Virus record (IMG/VR): IMGVR_UViG_3300032006_000079
Span: 1 to 24,450 of that record
From: a virus
Length of the DNA stretch: 24,450 nucleotides
Reading direction: 5' to 3' (one strand)
This document shows positions 5,361 to 23,919 of the stretch, piece by piece (positions within the stretch are counted from its first letter, which is position 1; every line of letters starts with the position of its first letter). The position numbers and the translations under genes are program-made. A model generated the notes under the pieces. The model made no database searches. It was not told the DNA's origin and saw only the letters and a list, made by a program, of their open reading frames with translations.

Positions 5361-6551
5361 TTAAGAAATGTTAGCAGGATATGTAGAACCGAATGCAGAG
5401 GGTGCTGTACCAGTACCGGCAAACAATTCAACACAAGCAGCAGGATTCAGGAAGTCTGCACCCATAGCCAAACGGCCAAGGATTACATCACCCTGATAAA
5501 CTACTGAGATATCTCCACTAGTTACTTGAACCTGTGGTCCAATTGCTTCAACACAACCAGCAGCTTCTTTCTGGAAGATCAAGCCGCAGGAGTTAGCGAA
5601 GTCAGAAGCTTGTCCATAGTTACCATTGATACCGTCAACTGAGTTACGAGCATCTTCGATATCTTCATCTACGAAAGAGCCAGTGTTACCTGGGTTTGCA
5701 GTGGCAGGATCTGTAGCAGCTGTTGGGTTAGAGGCAGGTGCATACTTAGTACCATACTTACTGAAGAATGGTACATTCATTGACTTGTAGATCTTAATGC
5801 CTGCAATTTCAATGATACCGTTTCCACCTTGCAGTGCGGTTCCTTGTACGTCACGGTTAATTAGACCGTTCTGACCTACATCTTGGATTAGTGCATAATA
5901 TTGACGTGGGTTAAGTACGGCAACACGTCCTTCTTCTGATACTCCCTTCTCGTCAAGTGCAGCAGCTGCATCATAGAATGCAGTTACTAGGTTGCCAGGA
6001 ACGAGAGCATCATCAGCATCATTACCTGCAGTACCAACTTGGATCTGTGTTCCACCTGGCTCTTCAAATGTTTTAGGTGTACCAGCTTTACCGACAGCGC
6101 TAGGTACTCGTGCGCCTTTAGCGATAGCACGGAAGATTAAGCGGTCATACTTCTGAGCTAGTGCATACCCGATCTTGCGGGAGATTTCCCCACGAAGATC
6201 ATAGTGCGCTAGTGTCTCATCGAGATCGTATACGAACGCGCTGGAAATTAAGAGATCATCAATTGTGATCGTCTTCTCAGCTACCGGAGGAGCACCGTCA
6301 TCGTTACCAAGAATGGATTGTCCTGGTACATGGTACTCAGCCGTGGTGCGGCCAGTGTAGATGAACTGCAAAGACTTGCCGTTCTTAAGTGTACGCTTCG
6401 TGACTAGATCACGAGCGATGGCATTCCGCTGGAAGCCTTTGAACATCTCGCCTGAAAACAGCTTGAGATATAGAGCCCTAGAATCATTAGCAGAGTTTAG
6501 TTGACCCGGCCTGGTTAGGTCGGCGGGCATGTCATTATTTTGATGTGCCAT
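5361..6551 (-). CDS. Major capsid protein (gp10-like)
   Basis: 396 residues; T7 gp10A has 345. The N-terminal region has the T7-family order: a LYLKLFSGEMFKGFQ segment near residues 27-42, then FIYTGRTTAEYHVPGQ, then TITIDDLLISSAFVYDLDE. This matches the N-arm, E-loop and start of the HK97-fold P domain. It forms the icosahedral shell around the scaffold. The gene is flanked by a candidate phage promoter (6607-6645) and a strong terminator (5313-5340), so it can be made as a short abundant mRNA. Base composition is more GC-rich than in the tail genes, consistent with high expression. A methionine at residue 8 is a possible alternative start. Confidence 0.93.
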   Translation of the reverse strand: MAHQNNDMPADLTRPGQLNSANDSRALYLKLFSGEMFKGFQRNAIARDLVTKRTLKNGKSLQFIYTGRTTAEYHVPGQSILGNDDGAPPVAEKTITIDDLLISSAFVYDLDETLAHYDLRGEISRKIGYALAQKYDRLIFRAIAKGARVPSAVGKAGTPKTFEEPGGTQIQVGTAGNDADDALVPGNLVTAFYDAAAALDEKGVSEEGRVAVLNPRQYYALIQDVGQNGLINRDVQGTALQGGNGIIEIAGIKIYKSMNVPFFSKYGTKYAPASNPTAATDPATANPGNTGSFVDEDIEDARNSVDGINGNYGQASDFANSCGLIFQKEAAGCVEAIGPQVQVTSGDISVVYQGDVILGRLAMGADFLNPAACVELFAGTGTAPSAFGSTYPANIS

Positions 6552-6709
6552 TTTAATTGAATAAATGTATTAGTTACTTTCTTACGCGTAATGTTTTGAT
6601 CAATTTGTTTGTGGTCTTTCCCACCGTCTAGACGGCTAAGGGTATCCTCGTAAGGGCCAAAGCCAATGAAGGAGAGGTCCGACTCTGAGGTGCCTCTCCT
6701 CCTACTCAT
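6515..6709 (-). CDS. Small hypothetical protein overlapping the capsid start
   Basis: 64 codons, starting MSRRRGTSESDLSF. The ATG overlaps the previous gene's stop as ATGA, which favours coupled translation, and its 3' end runs 37 bases into the capsid gene in another frame. I recognise no family. The same DNA contains an eight-pair inverted repeat (6670-6700), a perfect 12-base palindrome (6624-6635) and a candidate capsid promoter, so much of it may be leader rather than coding sequence. It could be a real peptide, or a frame that is open by chance. Confidence 0.4.
   Translation of the reverse strand: MSRRRGTSESDLSFIGFGPYEDTLSRLDGGKDHKQIDQNITRKKVTNTFIQLKWHIKIMTCPPT
6607..6645 (-). promoter_or_regulatory. 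Candidate phage RNA polymerase promoter for the capsid gene
   Basis: On the minus strand the sequence GGGAAAGACCACAAAC (6622-6607) closely resembles the transcribed start of T7 class III promoters (GGGAGACCACAAC). It lies about 70 bases before the capsid ATG, where T7 has phi10. Just upstream is the palindrome CCGTCTAGACGG (6635-6624). The upstream half does not match the T7 promoter consensus, as expected for a diverged polymerase. The similarity is seen directly; promoter function is inferred. Confidence 0.4.
6670..6700 (-). repeat. Inverted repeat (hairpin) in the capsid leader
   Basis: AGGAGAGG and CCTCTCCT form a perfect eight-pair stem around a 15-base loop. There is no T-run after it, so it is unlikely to be a terminator. 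It could be an RNA processing site or could stabilise capsid mRNA, but it also lies inside a possible small gene. Confidence 0.5.
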
Positions 6710-6837
6710 GATAGTACTTCTACTTCGTCAGGAGTTTTATCACTAGAAGATTGCTCTTCTTTATCTTCCTTCTTTTCTTCAGTTGAAGGAGTGAACCAGG
6801 TGATACTGGCTTTTGCTTTAGTACTTTGATGTGACAT
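6706..6837 (-). CDS. Small acidic protein, 43 residues
   Basis: Starts MSHQSTKAKASITWFTP and continues into a Lys/Glu/Asp/Ser-rich, probably disordered tail ending in VEVLS. It begins two bases after the stop of the preceding 26-residue membrane peptide and ends in an ATGA overlap with the next frame, so it sits in a tightly packed chain. I do not recognise a family with certainty. The ordered, hydrophobic SITWFTP patch followed by a charged tail could bind a partner protein. It is too short for standard gene callers. Confidence 0.55.
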   Translation of the reverse strand: MSHQSTKAKASITWFTPSTEEKKEDKEEQSSSDKTPDEVEVLS

Positions 6838-6839
6838 AA

Positions 6840-6920
6840 TTACTTTCGTTTAGTGGACCAAGTCATTTCCATACCAAACCCTAACAGTAGGGCTAAGCAT
6901 ATCATGTACAGAAGGTCCAT
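6840..6920 (-). CDS. 26-residue membrane peptide
   Basis: The ATG follows the stop codon of the secreted beta-barrel-like protein with no gap (TAGATG). Residues 3-19 are almost wholly hydrophobic (LLYMICLALLLGFGMEM) and the C-terminus is basic (STKRK), so I predict a single-pass inner-membrane peptide with a cytoplasmic tail. Function is unknown; lysis or membrane modification are possible. Support comes from the exact spacing to both neighbours and the clean hydrophobic pattern. Confidence 0.5.
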   Translation of the reverse strand: MDLLYMICLALLLGFGMEMTWSTKRK

Positions 6921-7280
6921 CTAGAAGGCCCACTTAAGACCAGCTTTGGTTCCGTAGTTGTTCTCATCAGCGTCAGTTGTAAGAAAACTGATTTCTCCAT
7001 AAACGGACACAGCTTCAGTGGCCTGAAAGGAACCTCCGGCCTTACCAGAAAACTCGGTATCGGCATCCCCTCCATCGGGTGAGACGATGGCTGGGCCTGC
7101 TTGAAGATAGTAGCCGAGACGGTCTACATTGCCTTCATAACCAATATGAAGGTCTGTGACGGATCCACCGTAGTCTGAGCCTACCCAGCCGCTGTTGATT
7201 TCCGTGTTAACATATGGGCCAGCCATTGCAGGTGTCGCAGAGAGAGCGGACAGTGTGGCAAGTGCAATAAATGATTTCAT
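6921..7280 (-). CDS. Secreted outer-membrane beta-barrel-like protein
   Basis: 119 residues from the ATG at 7280. Residues 1-20 (MKSFIALATLSALSATPAMA) are a textbook Sec signal peptide with an AMA cleavage site, leaving a mature protein that starts GPYVNTEINSGW. The mature part alternates polar and aromatic residues in short strands separated by Gly/Asp turns (LHIGYEGNVDRLGYYLQAGP, then VSVYGEISFLTT). It ends in GLKWAF, with a terminal Phe as used by outer-membrane barrel assembly. At about 99 mature residues it could form only a small barrel or an oligomer. I recall similar GPYVN-type proteins in marine cyanophages, unchecked. It may alter the host surface, for example in superinfection exclusion, or be a virion component. 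In-frame non-ATG starts extend to 7334, but the signal peptide fixes the start. Confidence 0.75.
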   Translation of the reverse strand: MKSFIALATLSALSATPAMAGPYVNTEINSGWVGSDYGGSVTDLHIGYEGNVDRLGYYLQAGPAIVSPDGGDADTEFSGKAGGSFQATEAVSVYGEISFLTTDADENNYGTKAGLKWAF

Positions 7281-7305
7281 TTTAGTTTGTTTGTATTGTT
7301 GTACG

Positions 7306-7356
7306 CTACTTTGTCTTCGTGTACTTGATGCCACGATAGCAATAAGTGACAGTCAT
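7306..7356 (-). CDS. 16-residue peptide with cyanobacterial DUF4278-like motif
   Basis: Encodes MTVTYCYRGIKYTKTK. A strong ribosome binding site (TAGGAGAACC) sits six bases before the ATG, one of the best in the window, which argues that this tiny frame is translated. The YRG.KY core resembles the N-terminal strand pair of DUF4278 proteins, which are common in cyanobacteria and their phages (from memory, not checked). Its function is unknown. Confidence 0.5.
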   Translation of the reverse strand: MTVTYCYRGIKYTKTK

Positions 7357-7397
7357 AAGGTTCTCCTATGATGTGAGCCCCGTTCCCTGCTCACAAG

Positions 7398-7532
7398 TCA
7401 TGCGTCAGAGCATAGCTCCGATGAACGGACGCTATCGTAGTAGTCATGTTTGTTGACATGTAGGCCTTGGATAAATACAGCTACGAGTAGCAACATAATT
7501 GTAATTATCCAAGGCTCTGTGAATCGTTTCAC
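7398..7532 (-). CDS. 44-residue single-pass membrane protein, GTG start
   Basis: The GTG start overlaps the stop of the 18-residue peptide (GTGA), so translation is probably coupled. Residues 8-24 (WIITIMLLLVAVFIQGL) form one membrane helix. The short N-terminus is basic (KRF) and the C-terminal 20 residues are polar with one Cys, giving an N-in, C-out orientation. The layout would suit a small holin accessory, an inner-membrane spanin-like protein or a host-membrane modifier. No motif decides between them, and I see no known lysis gene nearby. Confidence 0.5.
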   Translation of the reverse strand: MKRFTEPWIITIMLLLVAVFIQGLHVNKHDYYDSVRSSELCSDA

Positions 7533-7585
7533 TTCTTAGGGGGTCTCCCCTTTTTAGTTCCGTAAGTTCCCTTTCCTTTGGGCAT
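7529..7585 (-). CDS. 18-residue basic peptide MPKGKGTYG...
   Basis: Encodes MPKGKGTYGTKKGRPPKK, strongly basic with a KGRPPKK end resembling an AT-hook core (GRP). I recall near-identical tiny peptides in marine cyanophage genomes, but this needs a search. It starts 7 bases after the 42-residue membrane peptide and ends in a GTGA overlap with the next. It may bind DNA or RNA. The GRPPKK codons also create a GGGG-AGA-CCCC inverted repeat, so a nucleic-acid role for the site is possible. Confidence 0.5.
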   Translation of the reverse strand: MPKGKGTYGTKKGRPPKK

Positions 7586-7591
7586 AAATTT

Positions 7592-7720
7592 TTACCATAA
7601 AATATCGTAAGCAAATCCATCAGTCATAGATACCATAAGCAATGTCTGCATGATGCCTATTAAAACTGATAGGAATCCAGCTAACATCAGACCTATACCT
7701 AATGCTCTGAGGTTATCCAT
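7592..7720 (-). CDS. 42-residue membrane protein
   Basis: Starts MDNLRALGIGLMLAGF. Residues 6-31 are continuously hydrophobic with Gly spaced along the helix (ALGIGLMLAGFLSVLIGIM), followed by a short polar end with Asp and Trp. It is predicted to be a single-pass membrane protein. The ATG comes one base after the stop of the 23-residue peptide upstream. No ribosome binding site is visible, so it probably relies on coupling. Function is unknown. Several tiny membrane peptides in tandem, in late-gene territory, suggest lysis or membrane remodelling. Confidence 0.55.
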   Translation of the reverse strand: MDNLRALGIGLMLAGFLSVLIGIMQTLLMVSMTDGFAYDILW

Positions 7721-7721
7721 G

Positions 7722-7793
7722 TTAGTAAGCTAATAAAGAAATATGTATACCCATACATGTGAACATAACCAGGTGTAGTAATCTTCCAATCAT
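7722..7793 (-). CDS. 23-residue hydrophobic peptide
   Basis: Encodes a peptide starting MIGRLLHLVMFTCMGI and ending LLAY. Two bases separate its ATG from the scaffold stop codon, and one base separates its stop from the next ATG, which is the main reason to believe it is a gene. It is nearly all hydrophobic with one Arg near the N-terminus, so it is probably membrane-inserted. Function is unknown, and a chance frame cannot be excluded at this length. Confidence 0.4.
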   Translation of the reverse strand: MIGRLLHLVMFTCMGIHISLLAY

Positions 7794-7795
7794 GA

Positions 7796-8578
7796 TTAGA
7801 ATTCAATGTTAGAACGTTCAAGTTTATCCATTACTTCTCTACGATAAGCAGGGTCTTTGTCATACTTAGGATCATTCATAGCTTCAACAAGTTGAGCATT
7901 ACTTTTAAACTGATCACCTCTATTAGATGGGGCTTTACCTGTAAGCATCTGACCGTCGACACCAGCAGCTTCATCATAACGAGCCTTAAGAGCTTTTACT
8001 GCAAAGAAACAGGCGAGAGGTTCACCCCTCTCCATAACTGTATCATACATTTGTATCTCTTGATCTTGTAAAGCTTCCTTAGCCCAACCAATCATAGATC
8101 CGTAACCTTCCTCACCTCCAGCAATACCTTTCAAACCATCTGCTTGATCTTTACTGAGTTGTGCTGGTAGGTTTTCTTGAACTTCTGCACGATATTGGAG
8201 ATGCATTTGAGCGAGATCCCTAGTAGTCATATTACTAAGTTCTTGTAGAGTCTCCTCTTTGTATGAATTAGTTGAAGCTTCTTCCCAAAGACGGTCAAGG
8301 AATTCAACATCAGTAGTTTCTTCTTTCTCTGCCTTTGGTTCAGGTATCTCTGCTACCTCATCAGTAGTAGATTCTGTATCTTCTGATTTAGATTCACCTA
8401 ACTTACCTTGTAATTCGATGTAAGCTTTCTCTAATGCTTCTGCATCTTTATATTTACCAGCTAGCAGTCCTTCCTGCTCAGCTGCCATCTGTTCACCTAC
8501 CGCCAGGGAGTCCTGTTCTTCTGCTGTCAGTACTTCAGCATCTGGAGTAGCGTCTACTGTTGTAATTGTTTCTGCCAT
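7796..8578 (-). CDS. Capsid assembly scaffold protein (gp9-like)
   Basis: 260 residues, somewhat shorter than T7 gp9 (307). It is acidic and Glu/Ala-rich in the first 100 residues (QMAAEQEGLLAGKYKDAEA), predicted helical and partly disordered, with a basic C-terminal region (YDKDPAYRREVMDKLERS), as T7-family scaffolds have. It should guide procapsid assembly inside the shell and leave before DNA packaging. The position directly after the portal, with a two-base gap, is the T7 order 8-9. In T7 the capsid gene follows at once; here about 1.2 kb of tiny genes intervenes. Confidence 0.85.
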   Translation of the reverse strand: MAETITTVDATPDAEVLTAEEQDSLAVGEQMAAEQEGLLAGKYKDAEALEKAYIELQGKLGESKSEDTESTTDEVAEIPEPKAEKEETTDVEFLDRLWEEASTNSYKEETLQELSNMTTRDLAQMHLQYRAEVQENLPAQLSKDQADGLKGIAGGEEGYGSMIGWAKEALQDQEIQMYDTVMERGEPLACFFAVKALKARYDEAAGVDGQMLTGKAPSNRGDQFKSNAQLVEAMNDPKYDKDPAYRREVMDKLERSNIEF

Positions 8579-14776: not shown

Positions 14777-15452
14777 CATAATAATCTTTAGTAAGGATCT
14801 TTGCAAGGCGTGCATTCATCAATGCCATATCTTCATCAAGATCTTTAGCAGCGAACGCATCTTTAATTGTTTGCCAATTATAACCTGTCTTCTCAAACAA
14901 CGCTACAGCACGTTTAATACCAATGCCAGGAACGCCGCTATAACCGTCGGTTGCGTCACCGGCAAGAGTCTGAATGTAATGCCAATTTCTACCATCAGTT
15001 TCGTTGATGAGTGTGTATTCTTTGAAGTCATAAAGTGGTCCTGGTATCTGTCTCATATCTTTATCTGGACTTACAATTACATTGCCAGGATATTTAGTAG
15101 CGTAGATGCCCATTGAATCATCAGCTTCTAGTTGAGGCATAATAATTACTTGGTAGTCATCGTGTAATGCTGATATGACTCTTTTGTAGCCACATGGCTT
15201 CTTTCTATTTCGATGCCCTTTATATTCGGGGAAAATTTTCTTCCTAAAATTATCAAAATGGGAGAAGAATAGTATGGCATCAGTAGCTTCACTGAATTCA
15301 TCTCTAATCTTCATTATTTCATGTAGTACTGCCTTATAGGCTTCACTGAATCTACTGGTAACAAGGACTACATCTTCAGCCCAGTCTATCTCATCTTCTG
15401 CTGCTGCACAGCATTTGTAGACGATGAAGTCTGCGTCAATTAGTAGTTTCAT
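14685..15452 (-). CDS. 5'-3' exonuclease (gp6-like)
   Basis: 255 residues with the FEN/T5-type nuclease layout. MKLLIDADFIVYK holds the first metal-binding Asp; FPEYKGHRNRKKP is the arch with basic residues; QLEADDSMGIYA holds the acidic cluster; VIVSPDKDMRQIPG is the D.D pair; and GDATDGYSGVPGIGIKRA is the helix-hairpin-helix DNA contact. In T7, gp6 removes RNA primers and degrades host DNA to feed nucleotide pools, which fits its place beside the RNR operon. The sequence is AT-rich (about 35% GC in one sampled line), unlike the GC-richer RNR genes next to it. The start overlaps the HNH gene by 17 bases. Confidence 0.9.
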   Translation of the reverse strand: MKLLIDADFIVYKCCAAAEDEIDWAEDVVLVTSRFSEAYKAVLHEIMKIRDEFSEATDAILFFSHFDNFRKKIFPEYKGHRNRKKPCGYKRVISALHDDYQVIIMPQLEADDSMGIYATKYPGNVIVSPDKDMRQIPGPLYDFKEYTLINETDGRNWHYIQTLAGDATDGYSGVPGIGIKRAVALFEKTGYNWQTIKDAFAAKDLDEDMALMNARLAKILTKDYYDDKRRVPILWTPKTDNRDDSGTRSGTKEVL

Positions 15453-16056
15453 TTTTTGTCATAATAGCTTTCAGTGCATTACTAATTTGTAGTAACTCTT
15501 CCCATGTAGCAGATCCTTTTATATTATTAGCTTTCCAAGAACAAACCAATAGATTATCTAGTGTATAACCTTTGCTAGAGTCTATTCTATCTAATGATTT
15601 AGCATCTGGAGCTCCTTGTCTGCCTTTCCTTCCATGTTTACCTGATTCAATATGCGTCCATCGGATAGGTATACCCATATATGGACATATATCTACATCT
15701 TTCGCTAATACATCTTCATAGGTTATAGTGAACTCTAAACCCTTTTCCGCAGCCCGTGTCGCAGCATCTCTCAACTGACTGAGACCAGGGTTCTCATTAA
15801 AATGTCTGCACTGCCTCTCAGCCATATGTTTTTTACAGTAGACTTGCATGCCTCCACCTGAACTTCCTCCGGGGCTGAAGTGATCATGAGGTAGCATTGC
15901 TTGGCAATCTGGGCACCACTTATGTGTTGGTGTATATTTATCAGTGTACTTCCGCCCATGTTCGTCCAGCTTTGGACTCTGCTGCAATGGGGATTCTGGT
16001 GTTGTAGAATTCTCCTGCTCTGGCGGCTGAGAATTCGAGGGTGAATTTAATGTCAT
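15436..16056 (-). CDS. HNH endonuclease with zinc-binding N-domain
   Basis: 206 residues. WCPDC (C48, C51) and C74 with the following His and Cys form a probable zinc ribbon. The core has CPYMGIP (C124), SLDRIDSSKGYTLDN (154-168) and CSWKANNIKG, which is the phage HNH (His-Me finger) pattern; the classical first His is not obvious. The gene sits between polymerase and exonuclease, a usual site for free-standing homing endonucleases. Residues 1-38, Ser/Pro/Gln-rich, are encoded over the polymerase C-terminus in another frame. No ATG lies between the polymerase stop and the zinc motif, so the overlap seems real. No ribosome binding site is evident. Confidence 0.82.
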   Translation of the reverse strand: MTLNSPSNSQPPEQENSTTPESPLQQSPKLDEHGRKYTDKYTPTHKWCPDCQAMLPHDHFSPGGSSGGGMQVYCKKHMAERQCRHFNENPGLSQLRDAATRAAEKGLEFTITYEDVLAKDVDICPYMGIPIRWTHIESGKHGRKGRQGAPDAKSLDRIDSSKGYTLDNLLVCSWKANNIKGSATWEELLQISNALKAIMTKNETTN

Positions 16057-17212
16057 TTACATACTTTGTTGTTGTTTGATATTGGAGTTCATCATGGATG
16101 AACGCTAGTTGAGTCGCCTCAAAATAAGGATGAGTGTGGATATAATCATTAGCGATGACCATCCATCTCTTAGCGATAACTCCGGCTGATGATTGAAGGC
16201 AGTAATTCAACGCTTTGTGTGATGAATCAACTTCAATTTTTCTTCCATCGATAGCCCGGATGAAACCCCGTTTTGACGCATCTTTGATAGCTTTAAGTAG
16301 TTTTGCAAGGCCTGGAATGGCGTCGATAAAAGCTCGACGAATCTCTTTACCTTTTGCTCTCGCCTGGTCCTCGGAAAGGCATTGTTCATATGATAGCCCA
16401 ATTTTGATGTCTCCTGCTCCATATAGGAACGCGTATGTTACAGTTTTTACAAGCCTTCTAGATATTCCTATCTTGTCGGCGTTGACTTGATGGATGTCTC
16501 CGGTGAGTAGAATATTACTGTAGCGGCCTCCATCGTAAGGATGTATATAATGGGCGAGCATACGAAGCTCGATACCACTAAGGTCTGCACCCACCATGAC
16601 TTTGTCAGGCGATGCAGTAAAGAGTTTCCTGAAGCGTTCATCTGATGGAACCTGGGATAAGTTTGGGTTTCTGTGTGCACATCTGTGCGTATTTGTTGCA
16701 ACGGAGCAGTGATGATGTATCTTAGACTTCGTAACAAGCTTGAGCCATGCGTTGTTCCCTTCGGAAAGCATCCCTAGCTTCTTGGTCAAGTCCAAGCATT
16801 TGAAGAACATCATCGATATCTCCGTCCCAATCTCCTTTAAAATCACTTCGTCTATCACGGGTTTTCCGGTGGAGGTCATTAATGACGGTTTCCAGCCATA
16901 GTGTGTTGTCAGAATCCATGCGATGTGATCTCTTGATGTAGGGTTTAATTCTTTGAGTCTCGTAAAGGTAGCCCCTCGTATGTAGCCTTGTGTTCGGTTA
17001 TCTCTTTTAGGAGTGAATTCCGTGCCTTGGATTTGAGGGTGCCTTTCTCGTAGTATTTTAACAGTTTCTTCATACTCTTTTTGGAGAGTCTGTGTAAGCT
17101 CCCATGCAGCTCTTTCATCAAATGTCCATCCATTTTCCTCCTGTGTTTGTAATATTTGTGCAACCTGATGTTCTAACGTGACCCAGTCAGGTATGGGTGG
17201 AAGTGGTCGCAT
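15941..17212 (-). CDS. Family A DNA polymerase, polymerase domain (separate frame)
   Basis: 423 residues covering thumb, palm and fingers of a T7 gp5-like enzyme. Motif A is VGADLSGIELR (D210). Motif B is SRRLVKTVTYAFLYGAG, with R252, K256 and Y260 matching T7 R518, K522 and Y526. Motif C is IHDE (D374). Tyr at the 762-equivalent position is the T7-like state. The stretch between the first thumb helix and NPTSRDH is only about 30 residues, so the 76-residue thioredoxin-binding insertion of T7 is missing. The 3'-5' exonuclease domain is in the preceding frame; this frame starts with its own ATG, 40 bases before that frame's stop, shifted by -1. No clear ribosome binding site or slippery heptamer is visible. 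Confidence 0.92.
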   Translation of the reverse strand: MRPLPPIPDWVTLEHQVAQILQTQEENGWTFDERAAWELTQTLQKEYEETVKILRERHPQIQGTEFTPKRDNRTQGYIRGATFTRLKELNPTSRDHIAWILTTHYGWKPSLMTSTGKPVIDEVILKEIGTEISMMFFKCLDLTKKLGMLSEGNNAWLKLVTKSKIHHHCSVATNTHRCAHRNPNLSQVPSDERFRKLFTASPDKVMVGADLSGIELRMLAHYIHPYDGGRYSNILLTGDIHQVNADKIGISRRLVKTVTYAFLYGAGDIKIGLSYEQCLSEDQARAKGKEIRRAFIDAIPGLAKLLKAIKDASKRGFIRAIDGRKIEVDSSHKALNYCLQSSAGVIAKRWMVIANDYIHTHPYFEATQLAFIHDELQYQTTTKYVNDIKFTLEFSAARAGEFYNTRIPIAAESKAGRTWAEVH

Positions 17213-17712
17213 AGTTTAGTTGTAACTTTTACGTCTTGGATACAATAGTCTTCCATCTCTTGACTCCATTCTTTCCAGTCAGTAGTCTTAGAGAATTCTC
17301 CTTTATACTCGCCAAGCCTGTATCCGTAGGCTTCGAGGGAGTGTCGTCCTTTCAAACGACTAGGCATGTCCTTAAACTTTGCTTTGTCTATATCTATAAT
17401 TCTGTTATGATAGAGGCGAGAAAGAATAAGAGTATCAATAACAGTCCCAGTGTAATTGAAGAAGGGATAAAGCTTCCGAATAACTGGGATATCAAAACCA
17501 ATGATATTATGCCCCACGATACTTTCAGCTTGTTCGAGGTACTGGACAGCCCGTACCACAGGCTCCGACATACCTTTACCAGGACATTCATCGTTATAAC
17601 TGGTCGTCTGGTCAGTCTCAGTATCATAGATTGCAATGCAGTGGATCTTGGTAACATCATCTAATAGTCCGTCCGTTTCTAAGTCAAATACGAGTGTCAA
17701 TTTCCTTTCCAA
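17173..17712 (-). CDS. Family A DNA polymerase, 3'-5' proofreading exonuclease domain (separate frame)
   Basis: 179 residues matching the first 190 of T7 gp5. The three exonuclease motifs are intact: D10 and E12 (FDLETDG), D74 (GHNIIGFD) and Y156/D160 (YCIQD). The sequence stops where T7 gp5 passes into the polymerase domain. There is no in-frame ATG: the only usual start after an upstream TGA is TTG at 17712-17710, overlapping the stop of a small gene. Either the polymerase is a true two-subunit enzyme, a frameshift joins the two frames, or one base is missing in the assembly. Both frames being clean and domain-exact favours a true split. Confidence 0.88.
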   Translation of the reverse strand: MERKLTLVFDLETDGLLDDVTKIHCIAIYDTETDQTTSYNDECPGKGMSEPVVRAVQYLEQAESIVGHNIIGFDIPVIRKLYPFFNYTGTVIDTLILSRLYHNRIIDIDKAKFKDMPSRLKGRHSLEAYGYRLGEYKGEFSKTTDWKEWSQEMEDYCIQDVKVTTKLCDHFHPYLTGSR

Positions 17713-20476: not shown

Positions 20477-22815
20477 TAACAGAAAAAATAAGTTGAATCA
20501 ATTACGGAAGACGGGTTTAAGTCTCCAATAATTGGGGGGTTTGTTTCAGCACCGATTTGTTTGGCAAAATCGGTAAGATAATCGTGCTCAGCAAAAAGGT
20601 ACATGTAAGTCTCTCGGATGAGTTTGGATAGGATAGACATGTCTGTAGCACGAGACAGCACGCTATCATGAATAAGGGCGATAGGCGCATCGAATTTAAT
20701 GATGGATAAGTGGAGTAGGCTAGCATCCAAACTATGAATTAGATTGGGTGCAGTAGCAGCTTTATGTCTACTAATATCTACTTCATCTGTATCATCAGTT
20801 GCAACACTAAGTTTACAACGACCTAGTAATTGTAGGTTGAGTATCTTTACATCTTTCTTCATTAAACGTTGATTGACTATGAATCCTGAAGGTGTAGACC
20901 ATTCAAGTTCATCAACACCACGCTTAATGCATTTAGTCACTTCATCTTCAATCCATTTCATAACAGCCATAGGACCAGGAACAACTGTGTTCATAGCTCC
21001 CCTAACTGCCTTGACAATTAAAGATAAGTCATCCTTCTCTATCTCAACTCCCTTCTCCCTCAGTGCATCCCGTATATAGGATCTATTAGAGAAAGGTTTA
21101 GCGTTATAAGGTACTGTCATAACTGTACGCTTAACTACCTTCCTATCCATGAAGTATTGATACTCCTTAGGACAGTTAGGTTTAGCAGTAGCAGCTACAA
21201 CAGCATAAGCATCTTGAGGTTCATCACTTGGTACTACATTCACTAACTTAGCAGTAGACTCATCTCTGGCTAATCCAGCCAGTATTTGTAAACCACTACA
21301 GGTAGCGTCTGTACTTATCATTAGTGATGTATAAGGTCTATCCTTAACTATTATACAGTGATAATACTCCTCACAAGCAGCTAAGAACTGCCAAGGCTCC
21401 TCTACATCCTCCCATTCAGTACGATTACCGATAGGATCTAATGCACAGGCACCGATGAGTGTGGAGTTATTCTTTACCCAATCAAGTCTCTCTTGCATAG
21501 TAGCCTTATCAAGACCATATGTAGTAGCTACTTGAAATGCTAACCAATCCTCAGAATCAGGTGTTAGATAAGCTGGTTCAGCAAATCGAATTAAACTTTT
21601 TCCAAAGTCTGTATCCTGAGGTGATAGGAAGGCAGGTATAGGATAGGCTCTACCTCGGTAATCGAATGACCAAGGGATATAGAATTGATCTACATCTTTG
21701 AACCTAACTGCTGCCTCCATTGTCATCCTAGTTCTACACGAGCGTTTAAACTCTTGTGCATTCCTATTCCTAACCTCAGCTGCAGCTCTACGGTAAGCCT
21801 TACGACTATCCTTGTTGTCTGCTATGTCTACAGGTTTAGGAGGTAATGGATGATCTATAATTGGAAGAAACTTACCAACTGCTATACCTCTCTTCTGCAA
21901 TGTTTCAGCCACATCCAATATAAATGGATTGAGAGTGTAAGCAACCTTCTGTATATGATTGAGAAAAGTAAGTGGTGTTTCTCCCTGTATAGGTGTGTTA
22001 TGTACTCTACGCACTAAATCGTGACCACACATAACCTCGTTCAGTAGATACCCGCCTGGTGTGTGATTAGTCCAATCGTTAGGTGGTATCAGCATAGGCC
22101 ATGTCAAAGGACTGAATAACTCAGCATTAGCCATGACTTCATCCTTGATCTTAAGGAACTCAGGAGTAGGTACGACATAGTTAATTGTCTTCTTACCTAT
22201 TCTCCGCTCTTCTTTCTCAAACCATCCACTTGTAGATAGTAAGCAATCAAGTAACCAACCTCCTAACTTAATTCTATTAGCAACTCCCCACGCAGTCCAC
22301 TTCTTAACATCACAACGATTCATGAGTGTGGATATCACTGTGATCTTCTGATGTGTACCACATGCTTTATGCCAATAGTTCTTCTTTAATACATTAAGTA
22401 AACCAGGCGCATGTTCTTCATAATGTCTAATATGACATTCATCTTCAACTGCCTTACCTATACCTTCACATATCTTTGTAAGAGCGTTGCTGTTATCCTT
22501 ATATCCGAATACCTTATCAAAGGTAATCTTACATGTAATAGCAGCAGCAGCATCAGCTTCTAACTGTGATACATAGTTCTTAATTAGTTTAAATTGATGA
22601 CCTGTACCACGGCTTAACCTATCGTATGTAGTATACTCAATCTGTTCTATTACTTTAGGTAATAGCGTATCAATAGAGGCTATACCATACACAGACGCAG
22701 AGGAGTAATTACTCTCCTCAAGACGCCTTGTGTTATCTCGTAACCTCTTAAGGCCCTGCCTTATCTGATCACGTTCAAGTTGTACTTGTTCATCAATCTG
22801 TTGAGGTGTGGCCAT
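20476..22815 (-). CDS. T7-type single-subunit RNA polymerase
   Basis: 779 residues from the ATG at 22815 (T7: 883); a TTG at 22863 would add 16 residues without family resemblance. Visible motifs, numbered from M1: DYRGR (385-389), catalytic D503 (STDATCSG), R558, K562 and Y570 (RKVVKRTVMTVPY), and D717 (IHDS). The C-terminus ends in YFFC, comparable to the DFAFA foot of T7. In the promoter-recognition loop, T7 R746, N748, R756 and Q758 align by eye with I658, N660, K668 and S670, so promoters should differ from those of T7. The enzyme transcribes the middle and late genes. Confidence 0.95.
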   Translation of the reverse strand: MATPQQIDEQVQLERDQIRQGLKRLRDNTRRLEESNYSSASVYGIASIDTLLPKVIEQIEYTTYDRLSRGTGHQFKLIKNYVSQLEADAAAAITCKITFDKVFGYKDNSNALTKICEGIGKAVEDECHIRHYEEHAPGLLNVLKKNYWHKACGTHQKITVISTLMNRCDVKKWTAWGVANRIKLGGWLLDCLLSTSGWFEKEERRIGKKTINYVVPTPEFLKIKDEVMANAELFSPLTWPMLIPPNDWTNHTPGGYLLNEVMCGHDLVRRVHNTPIQGETPLTFLNHIQKVAYTLNPFILDVAETLQKRGIAVGKFLPIIDHPLPPKPVDIADNKDSRKAYRRAAAEVRNRNAQEFKRSCRTRMTMEAAVRFKDVDQFYIPWSFDYRGRAYPIPAFLSPQDTDFGKSLIRFAEPAYLTPDSEDWLAFQVATTYGLDKATMQERLDWVKNNSTLIGACALDPIGNRTEWEDVEEPWQFLAACEEYYHCIIVKDRPYTSLMISTDATCSGLQILAGLARDESTAKLVNVVPSDEPQDAYAVVAATAKPNCPKEYQYFMDRKVVKRTVMTVPYNAKPFSNRSYIRDALREKGVEIEKDDLSLIVKAVRGAMNTVVPGPMAVMKWIEDEVTKCIKRGVDELEWSTPSGFIVNQRLMKKDVKILNLQLLGRCKLSVATDDTDEVDISRHKAATAPNLIHSLDASLLHLSIIKFDAPIALIHDSVLSRATDMSILSKLIRETYMYLFAEHDYLTDFAKQIGAETNPPIIGDLNPSSVIDSTYFFC

Positions 22816-23847: not shown

Positions 23848-23849
23848 AA

Positions 23850-23919
23850 GCGAGTAAGCGGACTCGAACCGCTAACAATAGCTTGGAAGGCTACAGTTTT
23901 ACCATTAAACTATACTCGC
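23850..23919 (-). tRNA. tRNA-Gly (anticodon UCC)
   Basis: 70 bases fold into a complete cloverleaf: a perfect seven-pair acceptor stem (GCGAGTA/TACTCGC), a four-pair D stem with a GG-containing loop, an anticodon stem of five pairs (one G-U) with loop CTTCCAA, a four-base variable region, and a five-pair T stem with loop TTCGAGT. The discriminator base is U, normal for bacterial tRNA-Gly; CCA is not encoded. It reads GGA and GGG codons. It lies between two small early genes. It may boost translation, or be left by, or serve as, an attachment site; no integrase is in the window. Confidence 0.95.

Follow-up and report, generated by a model that had tools for sequence, protein, structure and literature searches.

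The gap between the scaffold and capsid genes

The window considered here is the whole of virus record IMGVR_UViG_3300032006_000079, a fragment of 24,450 bases from a marine T7-like cyanophage in which the minus strand carries the late genes. Between its scaffold and major capsid genes lies a gap (Table 1) containing a predicted glutamine-II riboswitch directly followed by a micro-gene for a peptide with a tyrosine-arginine-glycine (YRG) motif, a series of other small genes and, ahead of the capsid gene, a conserved structured RNA. We can understand this gap, with considerable confidence, as a cargo site of the T7-like cyanophages, where the riboswitch and its peptide form a near-constant module in the midst of changing passengers.

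A glutamine-II riboswitch

RF01704, the family of the glutamine-II aptamer, is the sole Rfam family found at an E-value of at most 1 within positions 6400-7900 of the window. In two sets of records from which the compared loci come it was above its cut-off in 41 of 50 and in 40 of 49 (the window being one of the 49), as well as in five of seven named records, among them P-SSP7, P-SSP2, S-CBP1 and S-RIP2; S-SBP1 and KBS-P-1A are counted both among the 49 and among the seven, and many of the records are fragments, where a miss is no proof of absence. None of the 14 control genomes was positive in any of these searches, the aptamer was not found in T7, and the copy of S-SBP1, at 19.6 bits, fell under the cut-off.

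When 25 copies are aligned, the paired elements P1 and P2 vary in sequence yet stay paired: 96.9% of the pairs are standard, and ten pairs, in a structure that includes the pseudoknot, display a change on both sides. Covariation amounts to 0.495 against 0.142 in shuffled alignments, the observed value being reached in none of 500 shuffles, and the pseudoknot is invariant across 24 distinct sequences. Comparison with the sequence and numbering of the Prochlorococcus aptamer crystal structure, as found in the available part of PMC6698751, places all of its pseudoknot and ligand-site motifs, CGTTC, CGCATGA and AGGGAACGGG, in the window. As an assignment made from sequence, the identity of the element as a glutamine-II riboswitch is well supported. 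The type 1 glutamine riboswitch, RF01739, was above its cut-off in none of nine records and had no match in the window, with a positive control in Synechococcus elongatus. RF01704 itself was above its cut-off in none of three T4-like cyanophages. In the T4-like S-SM2 (186778-186827) and S-H38 (158363-158410), both families of glutamine riboswitch gave matches below threshold at the same places, and these are possibly divergent copies.

The downstream YRG peptide

A model made from the 25 copies, used with a threshold of 16 bits, found the riboswitch in 65 of 85 sources and in 44 of 59 sources, the 25 matching by construction; five second matches of 12.4 bits (L031, L036, L040, L046, L069) were not counted. 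A YRG micro open reading frame (micro-ORF) lies behind every one of these 109 matches, which represent 91 distinct sequences, many of them closely related. The picking of frames favoured YRG frames, and the control on dinucleotide shuffles was therefore run with the identical rule: there, such a frame appeared in 41 cases out of 2180. The predicted coupling of the riboswitch to the peptide is well supported.

The peptide of the window is MTVTYCYRGIKYTKTK, and longer forms exist elsewhere in phages, for example MSQVELQARIKEQQDFQKEMKLKYRGVTYTKLTNN. Their common core is YRGxxY, and their lengths range from 15 to 44 residues, some measured from an upstream start, with the exception of S-RIP2, where the frame continues to 84. 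The 16-residue frame was compared in 42 distinct sequences, with a ratio of non-synonymous to synonymous change (dN/dS) of 0.26; three have a stop, always at codon 15, and six lack a start at the same codon. In P-SSP7 a peptide of 17 residues, MKVTFVYRGVAYTRVIG, is encoded at 20592-20645 of NC_006882 (4093-4146 of our locus L267), directly behind a riboswitch at 20522-20575, and the record annotates neither of them. YRG frames are also present in P-SSP2 and S-CBP1. The three peptides preceded by a riboswitch that were long enough to be scanned all match DUF4278 (PF14105) weakly, below its cut-off, and we therefore term the peptide DUF4278-like rather than a member of the family. A search for host relatives of the peptide (genome_contigs) returned only three loci; two come from metagenome bins assigned to gammaproteobacteria and are possibly phage DNA.

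The small genes of the gap

An earlier note on this DNA had read the gap as nine tightly packed frames that may make up an uncharacterised peptide set. The nine frames do lie where it had placed them, all on the minus strand, and the tiny frame to which it had attributed a strong ribosome binding site is the one encoding the 16-residue peptide just described. The packing is tight at seven of nine junctions: taken by coordinates from the scaffold stop, the spacings are 2, 1, 6, -4, 41, 25, 0, 2 and -4 bases, the two loose ones falling on either side of the 16-residue frame. The 41-base break contains the 3' part of the aptamer (7430-7373), which had been missed, together with the ribosome site.

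The check that the note had proposed, by tblastn and substitution pattern, favours seven of the nine frames, which are under purifying selection, with dN/dS from 0.05 to 0.26 over 10 to 42 distinct sequences each, in a test admitting ungapped homologues of at least 55% amino acid identity from 143 loci. These ratios are pairwise averages without correction for relatedness, biased low by the selection of homologues on identity, so that they establish constraint and not its exact size. Judged by this constraint, the seven small frames are real conserved genes. The 43-residue frame has homologues, too few for the coding test (one under its rule; ten loci, on nine contigs, by tblastn at E<=0.1). 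Four loci on contigs already represented (L100, L102, L107, L123) were excluded from the coding test, the 59-source riboswitch search, the gap comparison and the palindrome count given below, and included in tblastn.

Stops are rare in the constrained frames. One of the 34 distinct sequences of the 18-residue frame carries one (L067), not near the last codon, and one of the 24 of the 26-residue frame, at codon 25; in the 44-residue frame, five of 22 sequences have a stop, always at the last codon, and five of 22 begin one codon earlier with ATG. The homologues of the 18-residue MPKGKGTYGTKKGRPPKK in P-SSP2 and AP013538 sit where no gene is annotated, and its end resembles an AT-hook. The final 33 bases of the 44-residue gene, stop codon included, fall within the aptamer (7398-7430, minus strand), and this stop codon belongs to the conserved CGCATGA. 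With its stop inside the aptamer, translation of the gene may interfere with the folding of the riboswitch. The 119-residue frame, free of stops in 29 distinct sequences (dN/dS 0.19), matches PF24653 (Phage_OMP) over all its residues, and also phrog_417, and was found in 469 phage records; by this profile match its product is a member of that known family.

The 64-residue frame (6709-6515, minus strand), which reaches 37 bases into the capsid gene, is rejected as a gene. Its eight homologues all contain stops, three of them at codon 10, and a start codon is missing there from seven of nine sequences. When the first 38 codons are compared in the six sequences free of stops, the proportion of non-synonymous differences (pN 0.062) exceeds that of synonymous ones (pS 0.032). 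The stretch is occupied instead by the conserved, covarying leader RNA discussed below. The idea of a micro-gene cluster is retained for the seven constrained frames, with homologues for the 43-residue one, and that of simply an uncharacterised peptide set is not supported: one frame coincides with a structured RNA and is not a gene, one belongs to a known family, and one encodes the downstream peptide of a riboswitch.

Table 1. Features of the scaffold-capsid gap and of its borders, in order along the minus strand
Feature	Position	Strand	Evidence
Scaffold (capsid assembly) gene, bordering the gap upstream	7796..8578	-	PF05396, 30.2 bits (cut-off 27.1)
23-residue micro-gene	7722..7793	-	10 distinct sequences, 0 stops, dN/dS 0.14
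42-residue hydrophobic micro-gene	7592..7720	-	13 distinct sequences, 0 stops, dN/dS 0.09
18-residue basic micro-gene, MPKGKGTYGTKKGRPPKK	7529..7585	-	34 distinct sequences in 39 loci, dN/dS 0.05
44-residue micro-gene, GTG start	7398..7532	-	22 distinct sequences, dN/dS 0.20
Predicted glutamine-II (type 2 glutamine, Downstream-peptide) riboswitch aptamer	7373..7430	-	RF01704, 36.8 bits (cut-off 33), E 5.4e-7
16-residue downstream peptide, MTVTYCYRGIKYTKTK, ribosome site AGGAG	7306..7356	-	YRG micro-ORF behind the riboswitch
119-residue cyanophage outer-membrane-like beta-barrel protein	6921..7280	-	PF24653, 157.1 bits (cut-off 27)
26-residue hydrophobic micro-gene	6840..6920	-	24 distinct sequences, dN/dS 0.14
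43-residue micro-gene	6706..6837	-	PHROG 23119, E 4.3e-7
Structured capsid leader RNA, beneath the rejected 64-residue frame	6602..6703	-	Covarying stems; no Rfam match
Palindrome TTACGCGTAA, a possible small hairpin, in the interval from leader to capsid start	6582..6591	-	Palindromes in 106 of 107 tails
Major capsid gene, bordering the gap downstream	5361..6551	-	PF21703, 238.8 bits

A structured RNA ahead of the capsid gene

The fold of the leader, drawn from 30 copies, consists of a 5' hairpin that varies, a bulged one whose arms are UGGC and GCCG, and one formed by GUGG and CCAC. Compensation on both sides is seen in 11 of 22 pairs. Pairing amounts to 96.3%, a measure that is favoured by the derivation of the structure from the same sequences; two-sided changes are seen in 78 cells against 22.5 in shuffles. 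Covariation is 0.317, against 0.128 in shuffles and at most 0.111 when the structure is slid. Further pair types are no more numerous than in shuffles (22 versus 22.6). The GUGG-CCAC hairpin is nearly invariant and hence gives little support of its own. Folded as single sequences, five leaders were mildly low in energy (z -0.69 to -2.57).

The leader model matches 81 of 85 sources, 20 of which served to build it, and the four sources that lack it start inside the capsid match or at most 57 bases from it. The leader is also present, by model search, in P-SSP7, P-SSP2 and S-CBP1 and, by blastn at E<=4e-7, in 33 phage records, the annotated ones showing no feature under the match. It matches no family of Rfam 15. 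Judged against Rfam it is a candidate for a new class of RNA before the major capsid gene, and it probably affects the processing, stability or translation of the capsid messenger RNA (mRNA). That module and leader were missed in P-SSP7 and its relatives may be understood from the size of the gene, of only 17 codons there, and from the leader belonging to no Rfam family.

Several further observations concern this RNA. At 6624-6665 (minus strand) its GCCG arm can pair with the upstream UGGC or, alternatively, inside CCGUCUAGACGG; the two folds exclude each other and could constitute a switch. In L027, L028, L072, L076, L083, L088 and P-SSP7 (L267) a hairpin resembling the T-arm of a transfer RNA (tRNA) stands in place of the 5' hairpin, with an outer acceptor-like stem discerned by eye; ARAGORN, run for this reason on L027, L028, L072, L076, L083, L088 and L004, found neither a tRNA nor a transfer-messenger RNA there. 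A Syn5-type promoter was likewise discarded, as the single weak match in the window lies outside the leader, at chance level. Between leader and capsid start, palindromes of at least 8 bases, differing in sequence, occur in 106 of 107 tails, compared with 1797 of 5350 mononucleotide shuffles.

A cargo site with changing passengers

Scaffold and capsid genes are both present in 65 of the 147 sequences compared, a set from which T7 (L268) and one further set of loci were excluded; many of these loci are closely related and the counts that follow are not independent events. The leader is present in 61 of the 65 gaps, the others (L094-L097) being 205-403 bases long and devoid of leader and riboswitch. 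The riboswitch is found in 59 of these 61 (56, and P-SSP7, P-SSP2 and S-CBP1 by model search). Over the 65 gaps, the 119-residue gene is present in 43, hli in 35, the 18-residue gene in 29, psbA in 25, and the 26-, 44-, 42-, 23- and 43-residue genes in 18, 17, 12, 11 and 5, respectively. The gaps of AP013538, S-SBP1, KBS-P-1A and S-RIP2 display hli, small unknown genes, a gp222-like protein, psbA and further unknowns.

The suggestion of the earlier note that this is a variable cargo site holds well, content differing strongly between relatives, and P-SSP7 does carry hli and psbA at this locus, between genes 9 and 10, as the note had it; it also has the riboswitch, the YRG peptide and the leader. 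The window gap occupies the same place, between the scaffold and capsid genes; unlike that of P-SSP7 it contains neither hli nor psbA (tblastn, E<=0.01). Photosynthesis genes have been at the centre of research into the ways in which cyanophages redirect their hosts. Besides the leader RNA, the most constant content of the site is a putative nitrogen-sensing module, present in 59 of the 61 gaps as against 25 gaps for psbA.

Relation to known systems

Type 2 riboswitches are known from cyanobacteria and marine sequences, where they precede open reading frames (ORFs) typically of 17-100 residues (PMC2864571, available part). The window shares with the marine picocyanobacterial RF01704 elements a score above the cut-off, P1, P2, the pseudoknot and a short ORF directly downstream. 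It departs from them in that it belongs to T7-like phages, within the late structural gene block, in that the peptides mostly have 15-44 residues, and in that, in the window, the stop of another gene is located inside the aptamer. DUF4278, which includes the N-terminal part of the glutamine synthetase inactivating factor IF17, is under glutamine riboswitch control in hosts (PMC6316151, in part); the longer phage relatives have a weak profile likeness to it, and the phage peptides are much shorter and score below its cut-off.

Glutamine riboswitches carried by phages have been described before, in Melnitz, Mosig and AG-345-P14, in a text that also cites an earlier phage psbA riboswitch (PMC9004378, available part), and T4-like cyanophages are stated to carry them in the accessible portions of PMC9964418 and PMC9602691. 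According to the same partial source, the element of Melnitz, a T4-like phage, is of the glnA-like kind and linked to ssrA; the one described here is of type 2, has a YRG peptide and sits between the scaffold and capsid genes of T7-like phages. The available parts of PMC7760959 and PMC12753301 contain nothing on phage glutamine riboswitches. Among open-access titles and beginnings of abstracts, none describes a glutamine riboswitch at the scaffold-capsid locus of T7-like cyanophages, and a prior report is possible. The phi10 region of T7, upstream of gene 10, has the same gene position and a similar GGGA..GACCACAA stretch, a relationship taken from sequence likeness, and, unlike the window, matches neither the leader nor the riboswitch model.

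A phage response to host glutamine?

Glutamine has been proposed to stabilise the pseudoknot and thereby to free the ribosome site (PMC6698751, in part), and type 2 riboswitches activate expression on glutamine, being tied to DUF4278 genes in marine picocyanobacteria (PMC6316151, in part). A predicted hairpin beside P2 can sequester the ribosome site and start codon of the window peptide. Taken together, the published activation and this hairpin suggest that the phage peptide is likely to be made when glutamine is plentiful. By analogy with the host copies, a high glutamine level in the cell would close the pseudoknot, free the ribosome site and permit translation of the peptide, which would act in the manner of the riboswitch-controlled DUF4278 proteins of the host, tuning nitrogen assimilation during infection. 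Its target would be host glutamine metabolism, possibly glutamine synthetase. We infer ligand, direction and target alike, and propose that glutamine probably switches on a DUF4278-like micro-peptide which tunes host nitrogen metabolism. The other micro-genes and the beta-barrel protein would be separate passengers, probably on the same transcript. It is a more tentative proposal, quite conceivable but still doubtful, that the whole group of T7-like cyanophages senses the nitrogen state of the host during infection, through a conserved glutamine riboswitch that switches on a micro-peptide acting on host glutamine metabolism, and expresses its capsid by means of a new class of leader RNA.

A number of observations weigh against this interpretation. 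The riboswitch folded as a single sequence is only mildly stable (z -1.63), and no mutually exclusive pair of folds was found in its stretch, as the predicted ribosome-site hairpin coexists with P2. Two loci, L090 and L091, have the leader and neither riboswitch nor YRG peptide. The DUF4278 scores, 17.4-17.6 bits, are under the cut-off of 25.3, two of the three matching peptides come from near-identical phages, and the 16-residue peptide of the window is too short for the profile scan. The DUF4278 part of IF17 is dispensable for the function of that factor (PMC6316151, in part), so that the step of a direct glutamine synthetase inhibitor is weak.

Other explanations have to be considered for the same facts. 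The YRG frame might be a mere leader peptide without function of its own, the riboswitch controlling by translational coupling the next large gene, that of the outer-membrane-like protein in the window and the capsid gene in others. Indeed the peptide is tiny, it lies 25 bases ahead of the 119-residue gene, and phage genes are densely packed; yet it remains constant while what follows it varies, be it the 119-residue gene, the capsid leader or other small genes, its sequence is constrained, and host copies likewise precede short ORFs (PMC2864571, in part), which makes us regard this explanation as rather unlikely. That the riboswitch is a decaying relic of host origin, without present function, appears very improbable: its compensatory changes, its invariant pseudoknot and its recurrence across diverse relatives stand against the few copies in which the canonical first stem is gone or the score falls short of the cut-off (S-SBP1, L074 and L084, for example) and the two loci that lack it.

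The capsid leader, for its part, may act as promoter DNA for the phage RNA polymerase and not as an RNA element, a reading we consider possible though distinctly doubtful. The leader has GGGAxAGACCACAA at its end, which is similar to the way in which the T7 phi10 transcript begins, GGGAGACCACAACGG, and both stand at the same gene position; the covarying stems, however, are upstream of that point, T7 has no match to the leader model, and three motifs of the leader are each single-copy in the window, whereas the promoters of T7 recur. Both functions could coexist. As for the view that all nine frames of the gap are peptide genes, the tight junctions and the seven constrained frames speak in its favour, but the 64-residue frame, with its stops, missing starts and excess of non-synonymous change, renders it practically untenable. 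The reading that we prefer, of a near-constant riboswitch-peptide module in a cargo site, is open to direct experiment: P-SSP7 and several relatives are isolates, and the response of phage expression to the nitrogen state of the host can be tested in them.

Other features of the window

Away from the gap, the region 15436-17712 (minus strand) contains an apparent DNA polymerase, which appears as two overlapping frames, and a 206-residue frame, HNH-like by eye, overlaps its end. A tRNA-Gly (tcc) gene is located near the end of the window, at 23849-23919 on the minus strand.

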